NCBI GenBank assembly: GCA_017475405.1
Contig: JAFVFN010000022.1
Location: forward strand, 1-64,000
DNA from: Elusimicrobiaceae bacterium
GTDB lineage: Bacteria; Elusimicrobiota; Elusimicrobia; Elusimicrobiales; Elusimicrobiaceae
Direction: 5' to 3'
Length of the DNA: 64,000 nt
Part shown: positions 2,744 to 63,720 of the stretch, piece by piece
Numbering within the stretch: the first letter of the stretch is position 1
How the letters are laid out: every line of letters begins with the position of its first letter
Made by a program: the position numbers and the translations under genes
The notes under the pieces: model-generated
What the model was told of the DNA's origin: nothing
Database searches by the model: none
The model's input: only the letters and a program-made list of their open reading frames with translations

Positions 2744-3253
2744 TTATTCACTCAATAAAATGTAATCTCTATAACTTCCTGTTTGATTGGGGATTTCTTT
2801 CCCACCGGAGTTTATACATACTTGTCTTTCGGTTTTACCATATCCTCGGCATCTAATTTGCATAGAAGACCCATATGTTATCAGTAATAAAGGGATGTCC
2901 GTTGACATATCAATATAAGGTCGTAAAATATGTTGACAATATAACTCGTGGTATGATCCATTATAGGAACAAAAGGCTTGATCATTAGTAACTGCTTTTT
3001 TGTTTTCACTGAGCGAACCTGCCGGAAGGATATCCAATTTATCTAATGTGTCTGCATATTCTCCATTAGCCAAAAAATAGATTTTCTGTGCATCATAGAG
3101 GGATCTCCCCAATACAATTAGTTGTGCAAAGCGCGTTTTGGCAACTGCTAATTTATACTGTGGTAGAGCCACTGCCGCTAATATGCCTATAATCAATATG
3201 ACAACAAGTAGTTCTATTAATGTAAAACCTTGTGAATTATTTTTGTATTTCAT
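2744..3253 (-). CDS. Type IV prepilin-like protein (leader-RNA class), 169 aa
   Basis: The N-terminus has a short charged leader ending in Gly, then [20 protein letters not shown], the class III signal and hydrophobic helix of type IV pilins and pseudopilins. Glu at +5 is present and prepilin peptidase would cut between Gly9 and Phe10. The motif YFLANGEYADTLDKLDI after the helix is shared with the other pilins in the window. The C-terminal domain has several Cys that could form the pilin disulfide loop. An AAGGAG ribosome binding site lies nine bases before the ATG. The gene is transcribed through a structured leader (3292-3522). Whether it is a major pilin, a minor pilin or a pseudopilin cannot be told. 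Confidence 0.9.
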   Translation of the reverse strand: MKYKNNSQGFTLIELLVVILIIGILAAVALPQYKLAVAKTRFAQLIVLGRSLYDAQKIYFLANGEYADTLDKLDILPAGSLSENKKAVTNDQAFCSYNGSYHELYCQHILRPYIDMSTDIPLLLITYGSSMQIRCRGYGKTERQVCINSGGKEIPNQTGSYRDYILLSE

Positions 3254-3291
3254 GGGAATTCTCCTTATATAGTCTGCTTATGAAACTCAAT

Positions 3292-3522
3292 AAAAACGGC
3301 CATTGTTCATGAGCCCATCAACTGACCCAATCGCAACAGCCGTAGCTTGCCGCATAGCGACAAACATTCAGCATAGTATAAAAGGCTCATGACTTCCTTT
3401 TATATTATGCCTAAACGACTGTTTTTGGTGTTGATGTGGCTACTATATGAGCAGCTATCCGTATCTTTTACGGTTCCAAAAACAGAGTAAATTTTAATTT
3501 CTACTACATAACTATTATAGCA
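3292..3522 (-). promoter_or_regulatory. Structured leader RNA with terminator/antiterminator and private helix (copy 1)
   Basis: On the minus strand an extended -10 (TGCTATAAT, 3514-3522) is followed by a start region near 3507. The RNA then forms P1 (CTGTTTTTGG at 3476-3485 with CCAAAAACAG at 3419-3428) enclosing two hairpins, then a long hairpin (3378-3410), a short hairpin, and a terminator (arms 3334-3343 and 3296-3305, U tract 3292-3296). The private segment CATCAAC (3316-3322, written on plus) lies in the terminator loop and is complementary to GTTGATG (3430-3436) beside P1. AACAGTCGT next to P1 can also pair with the terminator 5' arm, allowing an antiterminator. Confidence 0.8.
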
Positions 3523-3533
3523 AGAAAATTCGC

Positions 3534-3561
3534 TTGACGCGTTTTTTTTTTTTGATATTCT
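3534..3561 (+). promoter_or_regulatory. T12-spacer promoter of a plus-strand prepilin gene
   Basis: TTGACG (3534-3539), 16-bp spacer CG-T12-GA, TATTCT (3556-3561). The -35 box starts 14 bases after the -10 of the divergent leader promoter (3514-3519), so the two promoters overlap in footprint. Nine copies in the window have the same spacer length and exactly twelve T. Confidence 0.8.
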
Positions 3562-3595
3562 CTCTTTATAAAGAAAAACAAATAAGGAGAGAATT

Positions 3596-4084
3596 ATGAT
3601 TCAACAAAAACAAGCATTTACACTTATCGAGCTCTTAGTAGTTGTGCTCATTATAGGCATCTTGGCAGCGGTGGCAGTGCCACAATATCAAAAAGCAGTA
3701 GAAAAGTCCCGCGCCTTGGAAGCCCTTGTTTTAGCTCGTGCTCTGAAGAATGCCGAAGAAGTATATTATTGGGCAAACGGCGAATATACCATGAATTTAG
3801 AAGAATTAGATATTGAAATTGAAGAAACAAAAAATTTTAGAATAGTATTTATGGGACCAAAAGGATTTACCCGTATAGCCTTGCGTCGTATTAATTCCTC
3901 ACAATATGATTATGCCATTGTCTTTGCATTAAACATGGATGAAGAGATATCTAATGCATTTTATTGTGTGAGTGAGGATGTGTCCGATGTAAAAGTAATT
4001 CAAAATAGTATAAACATATGCAGAAGTATAGGAACAACATTTATGCACGGACGCGCAGATAAAGAGTGGTGGCGGATTAATTAG
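3596..4084 (+). CDS. Type IV prepilin-like protein (T12-promoter class), 162 aa
   Basis: MIQQKQA precedes [20 protein letters not shown], so the residue before the cleavage site is Ala rather than the usual Gly. Glu+5 is present. YYWANGEYTMNLEELDI follows the helix. The C-terminal domain has two Cys (in YCVSED and NICRS). An AAGGAGAG ribosome binding site precedes the ATG. It is divergently arranged with the prepilin at 2744-3253 and followed by the aminotransferase gene. Role in pilus or secretion machinery is not resolved; no pilB, pilC, pilQ or pilD homologue is present in this window. Confidence 0.9.
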   Translation: MIQQKQAFTLIELLVVVLIIGILAAVAVPQYQKAVEKSRALEALVLARALKNAEEVYYWANGEYTMNLEELDIEIEETKNFRIVFMGPKGFTRIALRRINSSQYDYAIVFALNMDEEISNAFYCVSEDVSDVKVIQNSINICRSIGTTFMHGRADKEWWRIN

Positions 4085-7933: not shown

Positions 7934-8163
7934 AAAAAACGGCTGCTTGTTTTGAGCCAGATTGAATGCCTCAAACGCAAACAGCCGTAGTTTACCGCAA
8001 GCGGTAAACATTCAGCACAAAACAACTGGGTAATTAGTCCATCTGTTCTGCGCCTAATACGACTGTTTTTGGTTTCAATCTGGATTGCTACGCAATGCCA
8101 CTGTATTCTTCGTACAGTTCCAAAAACAGATTAAATTTTAATTTCTACTACATTGTTATTGTA
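7934..8163 (-). promoter_or_regulatory. Structured leader RNA with terminator/antiterminator and private helix (copy 2)
   Basis: A minus-strand promoter (TTGCAA at 8182-8187, TACAAT at 8158-8163) precedes the leader. P1 pairs 8120-8129 with 8063-8072. The private segment CCAGATTGAA (7957-7966) in the terminator loop matches TTCAATCTGG (8074-8083) over ten bases. The short hairpin GTTTACCGC/GCGGTAAAC lies just before the terminator (arms ending in ACGGCTG 7939-7945 and CAGCCGT 7982-7988), which is followed by six U. Confidence 0.82.
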
Positions 8164-20622: not shown

Positions 20623-20672
20623 AATGTGTGACGAGATTGATATCCCGATCGGCCACTTTTCCAAAATTTCGC

Positions 20673-20700
20673 TTGACGCGTTTTTTTTTTTTGATATTCT
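20673..20700 (+). promoter_or_regulatory. T12-spacer promoter of a plus-strand prepilin gene
   Basis: TTGACG (20673-20678), 16-bp spacer with T12 (20681-20692), TATTCT (20695-20700). No divergent leader partner here. Confidence 0.8.
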
Positions 20701-20733
20701 GTCTCTATAGAATAACATCATAGGGAGAGAAGT

Positions 20734-23998: not shown

Positions 23999-24088
23999 AT
24001 ATATACATATTATAGAAAAAATAGGGAAAACCTGGCAAAATCATGGTGGTTTTTAATATTAAGGAAAATCATCTTCAAAAAATAACGC

Positions 24089-24116
24089 TTGACGCGTTTT
24101 TTTTTTTTGATATCTT
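24089..24116 (+). promoter_or_regulatory. T12-spacer promoter of a plus-strand prepilin gene
   Basis: TTGACG (24089-24094), spacer with T12 (24097-24108), TATCTT (24111-24116). Spacer length 16. Confidence 0.8.
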
Positions 24117-24151
24117 CTCCTTATAGGAAATATCCTATAAGGAGATATGAT

Positions 24152-27794: not shown

Positions 27795-28023
27795 AAAACG
27801 GCTGTTATCTTAGGGTAGCTTCAGGACAACCCGTAATAACAGCCGTGGCCTCCCGAATCTACAAATAGCAGAATACGGGAAACACTTGGTACAAAATAGT
27901 AGGGTTATAAAGCCTAGAATTTTGCACCTCTAATCGGCTGTTTTTGGTCCTGAAGCAAACTGTTTAAACAGTTGTCCGTTTCTTAAACGGTTCCAAAAAC
28001 AGATAAATTGTACTTACAGTATA
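27795..28023 (-). promoter_or_regulatory. Structured leader RNA with terminator/antiterminator and private helix (copy 3)
   Basis: TATACT -10 at 28018-28023 on the minus strand. P1 pairs 27993-28002 with 27938-27947 and encloses CCGTTT/AAACGG and AACTGTTT/AAACAGTT hairpins. The private segment GCTTCAGGAC (27818-27827) is perfectly complementary to GTCCTGAAGC (27947-27956) over ten bases. The terminator stem ACGGCTGTTAT/ATAACAGCCGT is followed by UUUUG. AACAGCCG beside P1 can pair with CGGCTGTT of the terminator 5' arm. Confidence 0.83.
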
Positions 28024-28055
28024 ATAAAAATTTAGATACTTGACAATATGTATAA

Positions 28056-28096
28056 TTTTATGCTATTTTTTGATTAAATCCAAAAATAGCATAAAA
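28056..28096. repeat. Perfect 15-bp inverted repeat before the DUF4143 ATPase gene (copy 1)
   Basis: TTTTATGCTATTTTT and AAAAATAGCATAAAA are separated by 11 bases. The left arm overlaps a -10 (TATTTT) placed 18 bases from TTGACA (28040-28045), and the ATPase ATG follows 12 bases after the right arm, so this looks like an operator. An identical pair of arms with the same 11-base gap occurs at 30206-30246. Confidence 0.65.
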
Positions 28097-29886: not shown

Positions 29887-30115
29887 AAAAAACGGCTGTA
29901 ATGTCGGAGCCAGTTGAAGTGAACTCTTTATTACAGCCGTGGTCTATCGCACAATAGCGATAAACACTTGGTACAACATAAAGGGATTATAAGTTCCTTT
30001 ACCTTGTACCTAGAACGACTGTTTCTGAACTTCAACTGAACTCTTAGTCTTACTAAAAGCCCACCGTCTCTAATACGGTTTCAAAAACAGATTAAATTGT
30101 ACTTATAGTATAACA
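29887..30115 (-). promoter_or_regulatory. Structured leader RNA with terminator/antiterminator and private helix (copy 4)
   Basis: Extended -10 TGTTATACT (30107-30115, minus). P1 pairs CTGTTTTTGA (30081-30090) with TCAGAAACAG (30018-30027): the end pair is A-U here instead of G-C, a compensatory change against the other copies. The private segment CAGTTGAAGT (29911-29920) matches ACTTCAACTG (30029-30038) over ten bases. The terminator (ACGGCTG 29892-29898, CAGCCGT 29934-29940) is followed by six U. Confidence 0.83.
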
Positions 30116-30205
30116 GATCTAACTGGTTTTTACCAGTCTTTTTTGGTGTATTTTTTCTAGATATCTAGCTTTAATATAATGATAAACGATTTTTTGATTT
30201 GTGTA

Positions 30206-30246
30206 TTTTATGCTATTTTTGGGTGCAATTCAAAAATAGCATAAAA
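30206..30246. repeat. Perfect 15-bp inverted repeat (copy 2)
   Basis: Same arms as at 28056 (TTTTATGCTATTTTT / AAAAATAGCATAAAA) with an 11-base gap of different sequence. No gene starts just after it; it lies between the leader of the prepilin at 29344 and the asnS terminator. The segment between the two copies carries the ATPase and that prepilin. Confidence 0.6.
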
Positions 30247-36117: not shown

Positions 36118-36654
36118 TTACGGATACAACCAACCCAACAGAGGGTCTTTGTTGTATGTTGGAGAAGTTGTGCCTGTTTCTGACTTACATATTTGATTGG
36201 GTAAAGAGTTTTCATCCTGACTAGAGGTTATACATAATCTGTTCCCTCGATATTTTGTTGAGTAATAATGCATTGCATTGGTTTCATATATAATTTCAAT
36301 ATTTTGGTATGTCATCCGACAGGTAACTCGTCCTAATAGGTGTGAAAATAACGAACAGCTTGTTCCATTATCTATTCTTTTGTGTTCTATGGGCGGCTCT
36401 TCTGTGGTAGTAGTGTCGCCCGGTAAGTCTATATCTAAATCTTCCCAGTGGTATGTGTATTCCCCATTGGCTAAATAATATACTTCTTGTGCTTGTCTGG
36501 TAGCTTCTGCAGCCGCTTTGAGTGTAGCGTAACGACTTTTAAGGACGGCTTTTTGATACTGTGGCAAAGCTACTGCTGCCAGTATACCTATTATTAGCAC
36601 AACTACTAGAAGTTCTATCAGCGTAAAACCTCGTCCTGTGTTTGTGTGTTTCAT
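36118..36654 (-). CDS. Type IV prepilin-like protein (leader-RNA class), 178 aa
   Basis: The start at 36654 (MKHTNTGRG) has AGGAG seven bases upstream; ATGs at 36660 and 36669 are too close to that site or before it. Gly at -1, [20 protein letters not shown]. Mid motif [19 protein letters not shown]. The C-terminus has [37 protein letters not shown] and ends GWLYP, placing it in the CKxETG subgroup. A very similar C-terminal end (CKSETG...WLYP) is found in the decayed remnant at 56695-56811. Confidence 0.9.
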
Positions 36655-36692
36655 AAACATTCTCCTCAATTTTTCTGTTTATGAAACCCAAT

Positions 36693-36923
36693 AAAACGGC
36701 TGTTATGCTCGGATTGGCCTACCAGTCCTATACATAACAACCGTGGTCTCCCGCTTAAGCGGGAAACTCTCGACACAAAATAAAGGGTTTCGAAGGTCCT
36801 TTACTTTGTGTCTAAATCGGTTGTTTTTGGAGTAGGCCAAAACTATTTTATAGTTTGCCGTATTCTGCATACGGTTCCAAAAACAGAATAAATTTTAATT
36901 TCTACTACCTAATTATTATAGCA
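36693..36923 (-). promoter_or_regulatory. Structured leader RNA with terminator/antiterminator and private helix (copy 5)
   Basis: Extended -10 TGCTATAAT (36915-36923, minus). P1 uses 36877-36886 with 36821-36830. Private segment TTGGCCTAC (36714-36722) matches GTAGGCCAA (36832-36840). Here the terminator 5' arm is CGGTTGTT and the segment beside P1 is AACAACCG: both differ from the other copies at the same base pair (C-G to U-A), keeping the antiterminator pairing perfect while weakening P1. Confidence 0.84.
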
Positions 36924-36933
36924 GAAAAAGTAC

Positions 36934-36961
36934 TTGACGCGTTTTTTTTTTTTGATATCTT
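36934..36961 (+). promoter_or_regulatory. T12-spacer promoter of a plus-strand prepilin gene
   Basis: TTGACG (36934-36939), T12 (36942-36953), TATCTT (36956-36961). The gap to the divergent -10 (36915-36920) is 13 bases. Confidence 0.8.
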
Positions 36962-37001
36962 CTTTTTATAGGGATAAAAACCATATAAGGAGATAAAATA
37001 T

Positions 37002-37499
37002 ATGTATAGAAATCAACAAGCATTCACGCTCATAGAGCTTTTAGTCGTAGTGCTTATTATAGGCATATTGGCAGCCGCAGCGTTACCTCAATATGAAAAA
37101 GCAGTAGAGAAATCTCGTGCTACAGAGGGAATTATGTCGGTGCGTGCTATTGCGAAGGCTAATGATGTTTATTTTCTGGCTAACGGAGAATATGCAGATT
37201 CTTTAGAAGAATTGGATATTGATTTTGGCGGGACAGAGAAGTCCGGTACATGGGTTACAAGTAAGATTTTACAATTTTTTGAATGTAGACCGCATAATAA
37301 TGGGCAAACGGCTTCATCAAAGGCCTTTTGTCGTCGTAGAGATGCTAATCGATATGGTAGTTATTTTTTTGCTTGTGCAATCAGCGATGGCAGATGTTAT
37401 TGCGGAACATCTGGTAATGAAACAGCCAAAAAATGGTGCGGAATTATTGTTGGCAAAAAGGAAGCCGATGATAGCTTCGGACATTTCTTTCTGGATTAA
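37002..37499 (+). CDS. Type IV prepilin-like protein (T12-promoter class), 165 aa
   Basis: [27 protein letters not shown], Ala at -1. The helix continues LPQYEKAVEKSRATEGIMSVRAIAKANDVYFLANGEYADSLEELDIDF. The Cys pattern is FFECRPH, AFCRR, FACAIS, RCYCGT and KWCG, so this copy has at least six Cys. Its stop is four bases from the convergent rimO stop. Confidence 0.9.
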   Translation: MYRNQQAFTLIELLVVVLIIGILAAAALPQYEKAVEKSRATEGIMSVRAIAKANDVYFLANGEYADSLEELDIDFGGTEKSGTWVTSKILQFFECRPHNNGQTASSKAFCRRRDANRYGSYFFACAISDGRCYCGTSGNETAKKWCGIIVGKKEADDSFGHFFLD

Positions 37500-40179: not shown

Positions 40180-40240
40180 ACTATTATTATATAAAAAACG
40201 TAGATACAAAATGCTTCTTACGCCAAGTTTCAAATAGTAC

Positions 40241-40268
40241 TTGCATTGTTTTTTTTTTTTGATATTTT
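40241..40268 (+). promoter_or_regulatory. T12-spacer promoter of a plus-strand prepilin gene (TTGCAT variant)
   Basis: TTGCAT (40241-40246), spacer TG-T12-GA (T12 40249-40260), TATTTT (40263-40268). It starts 61 bases before the divergent trkH start. Confidence 0.78.
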
Positions 40269-40303
40269 TATTTATAGGGAAAAACCCATATAAAGGAGAA
40301 TAT

Positions 40304-43410: not shown

Positions 43411-43660
43411 AAATAACGGCTGCTACATTGGAGCTACAACCAGCAACCCCAATCTAACAGCCGTGGCCTGCCGTTTTTGGTTACCCATGGAAACGGCAAA
43501 CACTCAGTACAAAGTAACTGGGTAATTAGTCCATTTGCTTTGTACTTAAATCGGCTGTTTTTGGACTGGTTGTAGGCTATTTTACAATAGCTGTCCGCAT
43601 TCTGTATACGGTTCCAAAAACAGATTAAATTTTCTAACTTACTACTTTTTTATTATAACA
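43411..43660 (-). promoter_or_regulatory. Structured leader RNA with terminator/antiterminator and private helix (copy 6)
   Basis: Extended -10 TGTTATAAT (43652-43660, minus). P1 pairs 43614-43623 with 43555-43564. Private segment CTACAACCAG (43434-43443) matches CTGGTTGTAG (43566-43575) over ten bases. The short hairpin before the terminator is longer here (GCCGTTT/AAACGGC with a larger loop), still pairing. The terminator ends CAGCCGTTATTTG, a weak U tract. Confidence 0.82.
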
Positions 43661-48908: not shown

Positions 48909-49138
48909 AAAACGGCCGCTTGCTCGGTGCCTTTGACACAGCCACTTTGCAAACAGCCGTAGTTTACTGTAGTACAGTAAACATTCAGTACAATACCAAG
49001 GGATTATAAGTTCCTTTGTCTTGTACCAAAATCGGCTGTTTTTGGAGTGTCAAAGGATCTTTTCAGATGCTTCCGTATTCTCTATACGGTTCCAAAAACA
49101 GAATAAATTTTAATTTCTACTACCTAATTATTATAGCA
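48909..49138 (-). promoter_or_regulatory. Structured leader RNA with terminator/antiterminator and private helix (copy 7)
   Basis: Extended -10 TGCTATAAT (49130-49138, minus). P1 pairs 49092-49101 with 49036-49045. Private segment CCTTTGACAC (48930-48939) matches GTGTCAAAGG (49047-49056) over ten bases. The short hairpin is GTTTACTGT/ACAGTAAAC. The terminator has a 12-bp stem with two G-U pairs (ACGGCTGTTTGC against GCAAGCGGCCGT), then UUUU. Confidence 0.83.
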
Positions 49139-49149
49139 AGAAAAAGCAC

Positions 49150-49177
49150 TTGACGCGTTTTTTTTTTTTGATATTTT
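49150..49177 (+). promoter_or_regulatory. T12-spacer promoter of a plus-strand prepilin gene
   Basis: TTGACG (49150-49155), T12 (49158-49169), TATTTT (49172-49177). The gap to the divergent leader -10 (49130-49135) is 14 bases. Confidence 0.8.
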
Positions 49178-49213
49178 ATCTTTATAGAATAAAAACGATA
49201 TAGGGAGAATAAT

Positions 49214-49744
49214 ATGTATCAAAACAAAGCATTTACGCTCATTGAGCTATTAGTTGTCGTGTTAATTATAGGTATTTTAGCAGCAGTAGCGTTACCGCAG
49301 TACCGTGTGGCTGTACAAAAGGCGCGGTTGGCACGTTTAATTCCTTTGGTAGATGCAGTATATAAATCCGAAGAATCTTACTATTTGGCAAATGGGAACT
49401 ATACGACGGATTTATCAGTACTAGATATAGATGTTACAGGACCAGGTTGTACATTAGAAACGTCGTCAACTACAGGTTGGTATATGTGTGGAGATTATGA
49501 TATAGGTGTGGCTGATGGTCCAGTTAATGCGCAGGTTCATATGCGAGATGCAAATGGTAATTTATTATTATCATATTTATATTATTTTAATGATAGTAAA
49601 ACTAATACTATTTCCAAAGGGGCCATTCGCTGTTTTTCGAATGGAGAATTGAATCGTAAAGTCTGTCTTTCTTTAGGTGCCGGTACGGAACAAATTTCTG
49701 GCAAGGGTGAGACATGGGAATATAGATATACTCTTGCCAATTAA
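49214..49744 (+). CDS. Type IV prepilin-like protein (T12-promoter class), 176 aa
   Basis: [26 protein letters not shown], Ala at -1 after a leader of only six residues. YRVAVQKARLARLIPLVDAVYKSEESYYLANGNYTTDLSVLDIDV follows. Cys: PGCTLE, YMCGDY, IRCFSN and KVCLSLG. It ends WEYRYTLAN. GGGAG precedes the ATG, and a terminator follows 19 bases after the stop. Confidence 0.9.
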   Translation: MYQNKAFTLIELLVVVLIIGILAAVALPQYRVAVQKARLARLIPLVDAVYKSEESYYLANGNYTTDLSVLDIDVTGPGCTLETSSTTGWYMCGDYDIGVADGPVNAQVHMRDANGNLLLSYLYYFNDSKTNTISKGAIRCFSNGELNRKVCLSLGAGTEQISGKGETWEYRYTLAN

Positions 49745-51701: not shown

Positions 51702-51794
51702 AGCTATAGTGTAGCATATTTATTCGCGGTTCCCCACAGGAGTTGTCATGAACGATGGAATGACGATTGATAACTTTCTGTCATCGACGACAAC

Positions 51795-51822
51795 TTGACA
51801 TGTTTTTTTTTTTTGATATTTT
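51795..51822 (+). promoter_or_regulatory. T12-spacer promoter of a plus-strand prepilin gene (TTGACA variant)
   Basis: TTGACA (51795-51800), spacer TG-T12-GA (T12 51803-51814), TATTTT (51817-51822). The -35 is a perfect consensus here. Confidence 0.8.
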
Positions 51823-51860
51823 CTCTTTATGAGGAAGAAATTTCAGTCAAGGAGAAATAT

Positions 51861-61683: not shown

Positions 61684-61720
61684 ATGATATTCTCCTAAAA
61701 TCCTATTTTTGGAGTATAAC

Positions 61721-61956
61721 AAACGGCCATCATCGATGAGTCACGCTAAGCTTCCCATACAATAACAGCCGTAGTTTACTGTCGTGCAGTAAACATTGGA
61801 CACAAAATAACGGGTTTCGAAAGTCCGTTACTTTGCATCTAAACAGGCTGCTTTTGGCTTAGCATGAGGTTTTATATTTTTAAAACCAAGTCCGTATCTC
61901 TTATACGGTCCAAAAACAGATTGAATTGTAATTTCTACTACTCTATTATTATAGCA
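61721..61956 (-). promoter_or_regulatory. Structured leader RNA with terminator/antiterminator and private helix (copy 8)
   Basis: Extended -10 TGCTATAAT (61948-61956, minus). P1 pairs 61910-61919 with 61848-61857 (one G-U pair). Private pairing is shorter: GCTAAG (61745-61750) with CTTAGC (61858-61863), extendable over one mismatch. Short hairpin GTTTACTGC/CAGTAAAC. The terminator 3' arm is GGCCGTTTG, with a weak U tract, so this copy may leak. Confidence 0.75.
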
Positions 61957-61967
61957 AGAAATTTCAC

Positions 61968-61995
61968 TTGACGCGTTTTTTTTTTTTGATATCCT
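61968..61995 (+). promoter_or_regulatory. T12-spacer promoter of a plus-strand prepilin gene
   Basis: TTGACG (61968-61973), T12 (61976-61987), TATCCT (61990-61995). The gap to the divergent leader -10 (61948-61953) is 14 bases. Confidence 0.8.
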
Positions 61996-62028
61996 GTCTC
62001 TATAGAATAACATCTATAGGAGACAGTT

Positions 62029-62553
62029 ATGCAAAGAAATAAACAAGCATTCACACTCATAGAGCTTTTAGTCGTTGTGTTAATTATAGGGATACTGGCG
62101 GCGGTGGTTGTGCCGCAGTACCAAGTAGCCGTTGCTAAATCTAAATATAGTACGATAAAAAACTGGACCAAAAGTATTGCCTCTGCCCAAGAAGCGTATT
62201 ATTTGGCTAATGGAGAATACGCCTCTACCTTTGAGCAATTGGATATTGATATGGGAGGCGTTGCTTTAACAGGATATCCCAATTATCATGTTTTTAAAGG
62301 GGGAACATGTCACGTACAAATAGCAGGAGATCAACGAAGCGTTTCATGTTCGGCAGATAAAACCTCTATGAGCTATCAAATCTATTTATTACATGATAAA
62401 AGTAACAATGGAAACAACAAAAATGTGCGGCTTTGCATTGCTTATAATACAGATTTATCTTCTGTCCAAAATAAAATTTGTAAGCAAGAAACCGGTGCTA
62501 ATCCATATAACCCACCCTCTTCATCTTATATTACTTGGAGATATACCAAGTAA
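62029..62553 (+). CDS. Type IV prepilin-like protein (T12-promoter class), 174 aa
   Basis: [27 protein letters not shown], Ala at -1. [45 protein letters not shown] follows. GTCHVQ, VSCSAD, LCIAYNTDLSSVQNKICKQETG put it in the CKxETG subgroup; it ends YITWRYTK. AGGAGA precedes the ATG. Divergent partner of 61147-61683. Confidence 0.9.
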   Translation: MQRNKQAFTLIELLVVVLIIGILAAVVVPQYQVAVAKSKYSTIKNWTKSIASAQEAYYLANGEYASTFEQLDIDMGGVALTGYPNYHVFKGGTCHVQIAGDQRSVSCSADKTSMSYQIYLLHDKSNNGNNKNVRLCIAYNTDLSSVQNKICKQETGANPYNPPSSSYITWRYTK

Positions 62554-63634: not shown

Positions 63635-63658
63635 AAAAATATGATAGCAAAATAACAC

Positions 63659-63686
63659 TTGCATTGTTTTTTTTTTTTGATATTCT
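63659..63686 (+). promoter_or_regulatory. T12-spacer promoter of a plus-strand prepilin gene (TTGCAT variant)
   Basis: TTGCAT (63659-63664), spacer TG-T12-GA (T12 63667-63678), TATTCT (63681-63686). Confidence 0.78.
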
Positions 63687-63720
63687 GTCCTTAGAGAACA
63701 TCGTATATAAGGAGAGAATT

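Follow-up and report, generated by a model that had tools for sequence, protein, structure and literature searches.

The stretch of DNA analysed here (the window, 64,000 nt in length) carries eight copies of an RNA leader, all eight on the minus strand and all eight upstream of pilin-like genes. Copy 5 (36689-36886, minus strand) serves as the reference for the architecture, and its features named below lie on the same strand. A -10 promoter element, TATAAT, was predicted at 36915-36920 by a motif search upstream of segment A (36877-36886; CTGTTTTTGG / CUGUUUUUGG), the 5' arm of helix P1. Inside P1, folding places two hairpins, P2 and P3 (36841-36876). These are followed by V (36831-36840; UUGGCCUACU), a private arm that adjoins the 3' arm of P1, and by B (36818-36830; AACAACCG / CCAAAAACAACCG), the predicted 3' arm of P1 and also an arm of the antiterminator, with an altered base at 36821. 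Next come hairpin H4 (36772-36812), with the palindrome UUCGAA in its apical loop (36787-36797), and hairpin H5 (36746-36767), whose closing pair covaries among copies between G-C and A-U. Segment C (36736-36743; CGGTTGTT / CGGUUGUU), altered at 36740, provides both the 5' arm of the terminator and the other antiterminator arm. The terminator has the partner of V, named V' (36714-36723), in its apical loop and D (36697-36704; AACAGCCG) as its 3' arm, and a U-rich tract (36689-36696) lies 3' of the stem. Further downstream, E (36676-36686; UUUCAUAAACA) is complementary to the start-codon region (36649-36659; UGUUUAUGAAA) of a pilin-like gene (36118-36669) with the N-terminal methylation motif PF07963. 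The open reading frame of this gene, as listed, opens at an upstream TTG.

The other copies in the window lie at 3293-3485 (copy 1, V CAUCAAC), 7936-8129 (copy 2, V CCAGAUUGAA), 27795-28002 (copy 3, V GCUUCAGGAC), 29889-30090 (copy 4, V UCAGUUGAAGU, with A-U instead of G-C as the inner P1 pair), 43413-43623 (copy 6, V CUACAACCAGU), 48909-49101 (copy 7, V CCUUUGACAC) and 61720-61919 (copy 8, V UCAUGCUAAGC). Two near-identical inverted repeats, ATTTTATGCTATTTTT...AAAAATAGCATAAAA, are present upstream of copies 3 and 4 (28055-28096 and 30205-30246).

We identified 95 A-like sites with no more than two mismatches in the host genome (1.68 Mb in 30 contigs), and a two-armed pattern gave 92 matches there, against none in the reversed control. 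Altogether the parsed set includes 93 copies from the host genome and 136 distinct copies from its relatives, or 229 unique leaders, gathered by pattern searches that may miss diverged copies. A pilin-like gene, recognised by its N-terminal motif (with variant letters in two cases), lies 3' of the leader in 92 of the 93 parsed copies; leader L073 has no clear gene downstream. The TATAAT element, with at most one mismatch, occurs 10-45 nt upstream of A in 91 of the 93 copies, compared with 55 expected by shuffling.

A second class of pilin-like genes in the window carries plus-strand promoters with the pattern CTTG(ACGCG)-T12-GATAT, located at 3525-3566, 20664-20705, 24080-24121, 36925-36966, 40232-40273, 49141-49182, 51786-51827, 61959-62000 and 63650-63691. 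Each of the 20 distinct cases in the host genome, and each of three from relatives, has a run of exactly 12 T, so that the length appears fixed and not visibly phase-variable. Genes of the two classes often diverge from a shared intergenic region, with the leader type on the minus strand and the T12-promoter type on the plus strand (3253-3596, 36669-37002, 48952-49214 and 61722-62029).

Competing helices of the leader

The preliminary description of this DNA had singled out copy 5 for two distant changes that restore the antiterminator helix at the expense of P1. The changes are indeed G>A at 36821 in B and C>T at 36740 in C, with 81 nt between them; the B-C helix is restored with an A-U pair, P1 loses one pair (C.A), and C-D retains U.G. 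The paired G-C to A-U change described at the inner end of P1 in copy 4 is likewise present, as A (30081-30090) ends in A and B (30016-30028) starts with T, and it is carried by 5 of the 93 host-genome copies. Outside the host genome, however, the G>A change in B is found without a change in C in two other leaders, L209 and L094 (the latter with the near-copy L126), so that copy 5 alone is weak evidence. It is the comparison of the whole leader family, and not copy 5 singly, that makes the case for the predicted antiterminator.

We applied the check set by the preliminary description to the 93 host-genome copies, counting in each helix the cells that depart from the consensus, with B scored against both A and C; the last three bases of B lie outside P1, and the third of them makes the terminal antiterminator pair. 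In the antiterminator, pairing is kept in 84 such cells (81 by G-U and three by two-sided changes) and broken in 19, 13 of which concern the terminal pair, leaving 13 of the 93 copies without the outermost antiterminator pair. The P1 cells comprise 59 one-sided wobble changes, five two-sided changes and a single break, that of copy 5, and the C-D cells of the terminator comprise 100 wobble changes, five two-sided changes and eight breaks. The first two B positions outside P1 test the antiterminator only, as they are not part of P1, and they show 47 changes of C to U opposite G, which keep B-C paired, and one break. These counts bear out the proposal that both mutually exclusive folds are constrained, and they lend support to P1, the terminator and the antiterminator alike as predicted helices. 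Wobble changes preserve pairing only in the sense RNA, and the selected molecule would therefore be the RNA of the leader strand.

Internal changes in the C arm occur in 6 of 229 leaders. Five of the six (copy 5, L073, L206, L222 and L269) have the matching Watson-Crick base at the corresponding position of B. From the B-column frequencies, and with relatedness ignored, we estimate the chance of such matching at ~8e-6. Two of these leaders are coherent on all three strands, namely L206 (C CGGCUAUU, B AAUAGCUG, D AAUGGCCG) and L269 (C CGACUGUU, B AACAGUCG, D AGCAGUCG). As an aside, this pair would make the best natural mutants for probing the switch.

The inner terminator stem scores 12.5 for cognate arms versus 8.0 +/- 0.32 for permuted ones. 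The tract 3' of the terminator contains on average 6.1 U in 8 positions in the 93 copies, compared with 35% T across the post-terminator spacer, and it is often interrupted. A predicted G+C stem and U-tract before the gene, together with an alternative antiterminator apparently under selection, are what we find of an attenuator with an intrinsic terminator. At the gene end, E lies 3' of the U-tract and pairs with the start-codon or Shine-Dalgarno region of its own copy better than with those of other copies (cognate score 18.4, permuted 14.9 +/- 0.34), in a hairpin that covers the start codon. A and E are also complementary to each other (15.5 versus 12.6 for shuffled sequences); this helix cannot covary because A is nearly invariant, and an A-E pairing may possibly act as a fourth competing helix.

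The predicted private V-V' helix and the H4 loop

In all 93 host-genome copies V, which lies immediately upstream of B, is complementary to V' in the terminator loop; the resulting helix is 7-14 bp in length (median 10), with a mean score of 24.8 for cognate and 11.7 for non-cognate combinations. The same holds for 39 leaders of genome G041 and 97 leaders of other genomes. By sequence comparison, V-V' is the second, and much better supported, half of the predicted antiterminator. Matching of V with V' was not found in L089 (genome G065) or in L340 and L364 (genome G082). The V' of L340 and L364 (ACTGCAAGAA) would pair with the V of leader L136, and that of L089 (AGGGAAAATG) with the V of L127 and L332; no matching V that could serve L089 in trans was present in three further leaders of G065.

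The V sequences are all distinct among the 93 copies, and between paralogs V identity is 0.334, compared with 0.341 expected from base composition; for P2/P3, H4 and H5 the paralog identity is about 0.65. Within single genomes, none of 5085 leader pairs share an exact V, and since only about 0.06 such pairs are expected for random words, this uniqueness is not significant by itself. Between genomes, 51 pairs share an exact V versus 0.6 expected, and V is often identical between species though P2, P3, H4 and H5 are at background identity: pairs at background identity elsewhere (0.60-0.70) include 14 exact V matches versus 0.27 expected. Window copy 4 and a leader of genome G037, for example, have CAGUUGAAGU in common, and some of the between-genome matches precede different downstream genes. 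As V words recur between genomes and not within them, V appears to be preserved along lineages and to be private inside each genome.

Genome G082 offers a view of V at short distances. Among its leaders, 35 pairs have an identity of 85% or more outside V; in these, V differs at 5.5 of 10 positions versus 1.2 expected, and V' follows the changes in V. Neutral drift of V is rejected for this genome, since the rate of change of V in these closely similar leaders is ~4.6 times that of their remaining sequence. We also considered whether V words derive from other places in the genome; outside leaders, exact words occurred 24 and 17 times, against 17 and 17 for controls (250 kb), which is no clear excess. 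No SSU rRNA, looked for as a source of V, was found in the assembly.

Of the 229 leaders, 217 have a self-complementary apical loop on H4, and the palindromes concerned are of about 18 kinds. Among 66 distinct loops, 37 contain a palindrome of 6 nt or longer, compared with 3.3 under the null (maximum 9 in 500 shuffles), and 58 contain one of 4 nt or longer, compared with 21.4; the loops of H5, P2 and P3 have no palindrome excess. The kinds are unrelated to one another and include UUCGAA, UUAUAA, UAAUUA, UUGCAA, CUCGAG, CAGCUG, CUGCAG, UCAUGA and UCUAGA, as well as the shorter GUAC, GGCC, GAUC and AGCU. Three host-genome copies have a GACG loop without a palindrome. Palindromic and GACG loops are both known as dimer loops (PMC7357161). 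An apical loop that stays self-complementary despite changes of sequence, as in kissing-loop dimers, is the trace expected if H4 pairs with its counterpart on another molecule of that RNA.

Folding order and possible readings

Comparison of the copies establishes P1, the terminator, the antiterminator, V-V', H4 self-complementarity and E-start-codon pairing as predicted pairings, and computed energies establish their order of stability during transcription. According to these energy estimates, which ignore pseudoknots, kinetics and proteins, the P1 and antiterminator folds differ by 1.2 kcal/mol in a transcript ending at C, the antiterminator with V-V' has a mean advantage of 8.6 (and is favoured in 92 of 93 copies) in a transcript ending after V', P1 with the terminator has one of 6.7 (favoured in 91 of 93) in a transcript that includes D, and the full-length minimum-energy fold is P1 plus terminator in 90 of 93. 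In this model, such an order over growing transcripts is the pattern of a kinetic switch.

The family probably comprises mRNA leaders of ~230 nt, each serving as a co-transcriptional attenuator for one gene, in most cases a type IV pilin-like gene. The OFF fold would combine P1 (A-B), P2, P3, H4, H5 and the terminator hairpin (C-D and the U-tract). In the ON fold, B would quit A for C, and V, just upstream of B, would pair with V', just downstream of C, B-C and V-V' making up one composite antiterminator. RNA polymerase produces C, V' and D in this order, so that the outcome would hinge on D arriving while the antiterminator holds, and V-V' may be the clamp that keeps the antiterminator in place until then. 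We infer that termination takes place in vivo; after read-through, the hairpin between E and the start codon could still restrain translation. Kissing of H4 loops between two RNA molecules may bring together two transcripts, or a terminated and a nascent leader, and V may be kept private so that V-V' strand exchange is limited to leaders of the same gene. Against this reading as an attenuator we count the interrupted U-tracts, the loss of the outermost antiterminator pair in 13 of 93 copies, the three leaders of relatives without V-V' matching (L089, L340 and L364), the apparent lack of a conserved unpaired pocket that would point to a ligand, and the fact that V-V' pairing would equally be open to a pseudoknot in which P1 and the terminator stay intact.

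That last possibility amounts to a reading of its own, in which V-V' is a kissing contact of the OFF fold, V docking into the terminator loop and stacking on P1, and the compact terminated leader RNA may itself be a stable product. The distance from the end of V to the first base of P1 is 0-1 nt in 74 of 93 copies, with a one-base overlap in the other 19, as coaxial stacking needs; this abutment fits the pseudoknot as well. The position of V' between the two arms of the covarying inner terminator stem and the minimum-energy fold of P1 plus terminator in 90 of 93 copies also speak for it. A 10-bp contact would, however, be strained in a loop of roughly a dozen nt, and B-C would be left unexplained though it is constrained at positions outside P1; we regard the pseudoknot as possible, with more doubt than confidence. 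Homodimers formed in trans, in which palindromic H4 loops start the contact and V of one RNA pairs with V' of the other, would turn the privacy of V into self-regulation by the same gene. They could account for self-complementarity of H4 through so many kinds of palindrome and for the GACG loops, both types being known dimer loops (PMC7357161), for V words that are unique per genome (0 of 5085 pairs) and shared between species (51 exact matches versus 0.6), and for the divergence of V among the similar leaders of G082 (at least 85% alike, 5.5 of 10 positions versus 1.2 expected). Pairing of V with V' in cis is nevertheless easier sterically and kinetically, 250 kb of the host genome show no enrichment of V words outside leaders, and random words would be expected to be as free of repeats within a genome (0.06 expected); we consider such dimers a rather unlikely explanation. 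The broadest version of this idea, which we put forward only tentatively and consider unlikely as it stands, is a self-addressed RNA system, where more than 90 paralogous genes have leaders that recognise their own copies by a class-level H4 kissing loop and a gene-private V-V' exchange, each gene's RNA sensing or regulating its own transcripts only.

A metabolite riboswitch with a ligand at the P1-P2-P3 junction would suit the position and switch logic of the leader, where P1 closes a three-way junction. The P2/P3 region is variable, though (identity about 0.66 among copies), the switch strands hold the most conserved letters, and no Rfam family scored above threshold; we consider it improbable. 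Lastly, a repeat family without a regulatory role, its complementarity due to common descent, is suggested by the relatedness of all copies and their number within one genome. Yet V carries no signal of descent between paralogs (0.334 versus 0.341) while V' matches it in every host-genome copy, and changes in B almost exclusively preserve pairing. Such a repeat is contradicted by the cell counts, V-V' matching, V identity and the matched C-B variants, and we give it hardly any credence.

Known systems and distribution

Judged by sequence, the leader family of Elusimicrobiaceae is a predicted transcription attenuator in kind, set apart by its private helix, self-complementary loop and copy number. 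Attenuators in operon leaders (trp, rplJL and the expression platforms of riboswitches) have the same overlapping strands, forming a terminator or an antiterminator before the gene, whereas the present family has more than 90 copies in a single genome, adds a private long-range helix to the predicted antiterminator, has a loop that is self-complementary, and has no known ligand or protein. T-box leaders are similar in that one architecture joins an antiterminator switch to a recognition element particular to each gene. In contrast to them, the specific element here, about 10 nt long and gene-private, pairs inside the same leader, and no T-box match was found by Rfam searches of the window and copy 5. 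These searches (the window at the gathering threshold, copy 5 at a permissive one) gave nothing near any family cut-off, and we did not find a description of such a leader in the open-access literature. The HIV-1 dimer loop has the layout AA-N6-A, and so does H4 where its loop reads AA-UUGCAA-A. The retroviral dimer loops (HIV-1 DIS; GACG in MoMuLV/MoMuSV; PMC7357161) share with H4 a palindromic 6-nt or GACG apical loop, whereas H4 belongs to a bacterial mRNA leader, its palindrome varies between copies and its dimer is putative. Natural bacterial RNAs that assemble with their own copies include ROOL, GOLLD and OLE (PMC12286853). Dimers of the leaders, as suggested by the H4 loops, would resemble them in self-assembly; the leaders differ in being short and directly before protein genes, with no Rfam match.

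The more than 90 copies, the private pairs and the self-complementary loop suggest an undescribed gene-specific system of RNA control. With more than 90 natural variants of one switch in a single genome, a switch in which three helices compete and to which a private helix and, in nearly all copies, a self-complementary loop belong, the design rules should be readable from sequence and testable base by base. If the privacy of V serves recognition in trans, this would be a new way of controlling, one by one, many near-identical surface genes, here the pilins of gut Elusimicrobia.

In a scan of 84,980 species outside the host genome, matches were confined to Elusimicrobia records (rumen, horse, reindeer and similar sources), apart from one 'uncultured bacterium', and in the second family of the order the pattern counts were at background. 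Most species of the same genus have matches, usually 1-5 copies. High counts, some of which include antisense matches at the same site, were obtained for the host genome (92), G026 (48), G041 (42), G032 (22) and, from a second genus, G082 (23). In low-copy species the leader also precedes genes for a beta-barrel protein, lipoproteins, a DUF4422 protein, a glycosyltransferase, a YrbL-like protein and zinc-ribbon proteins.
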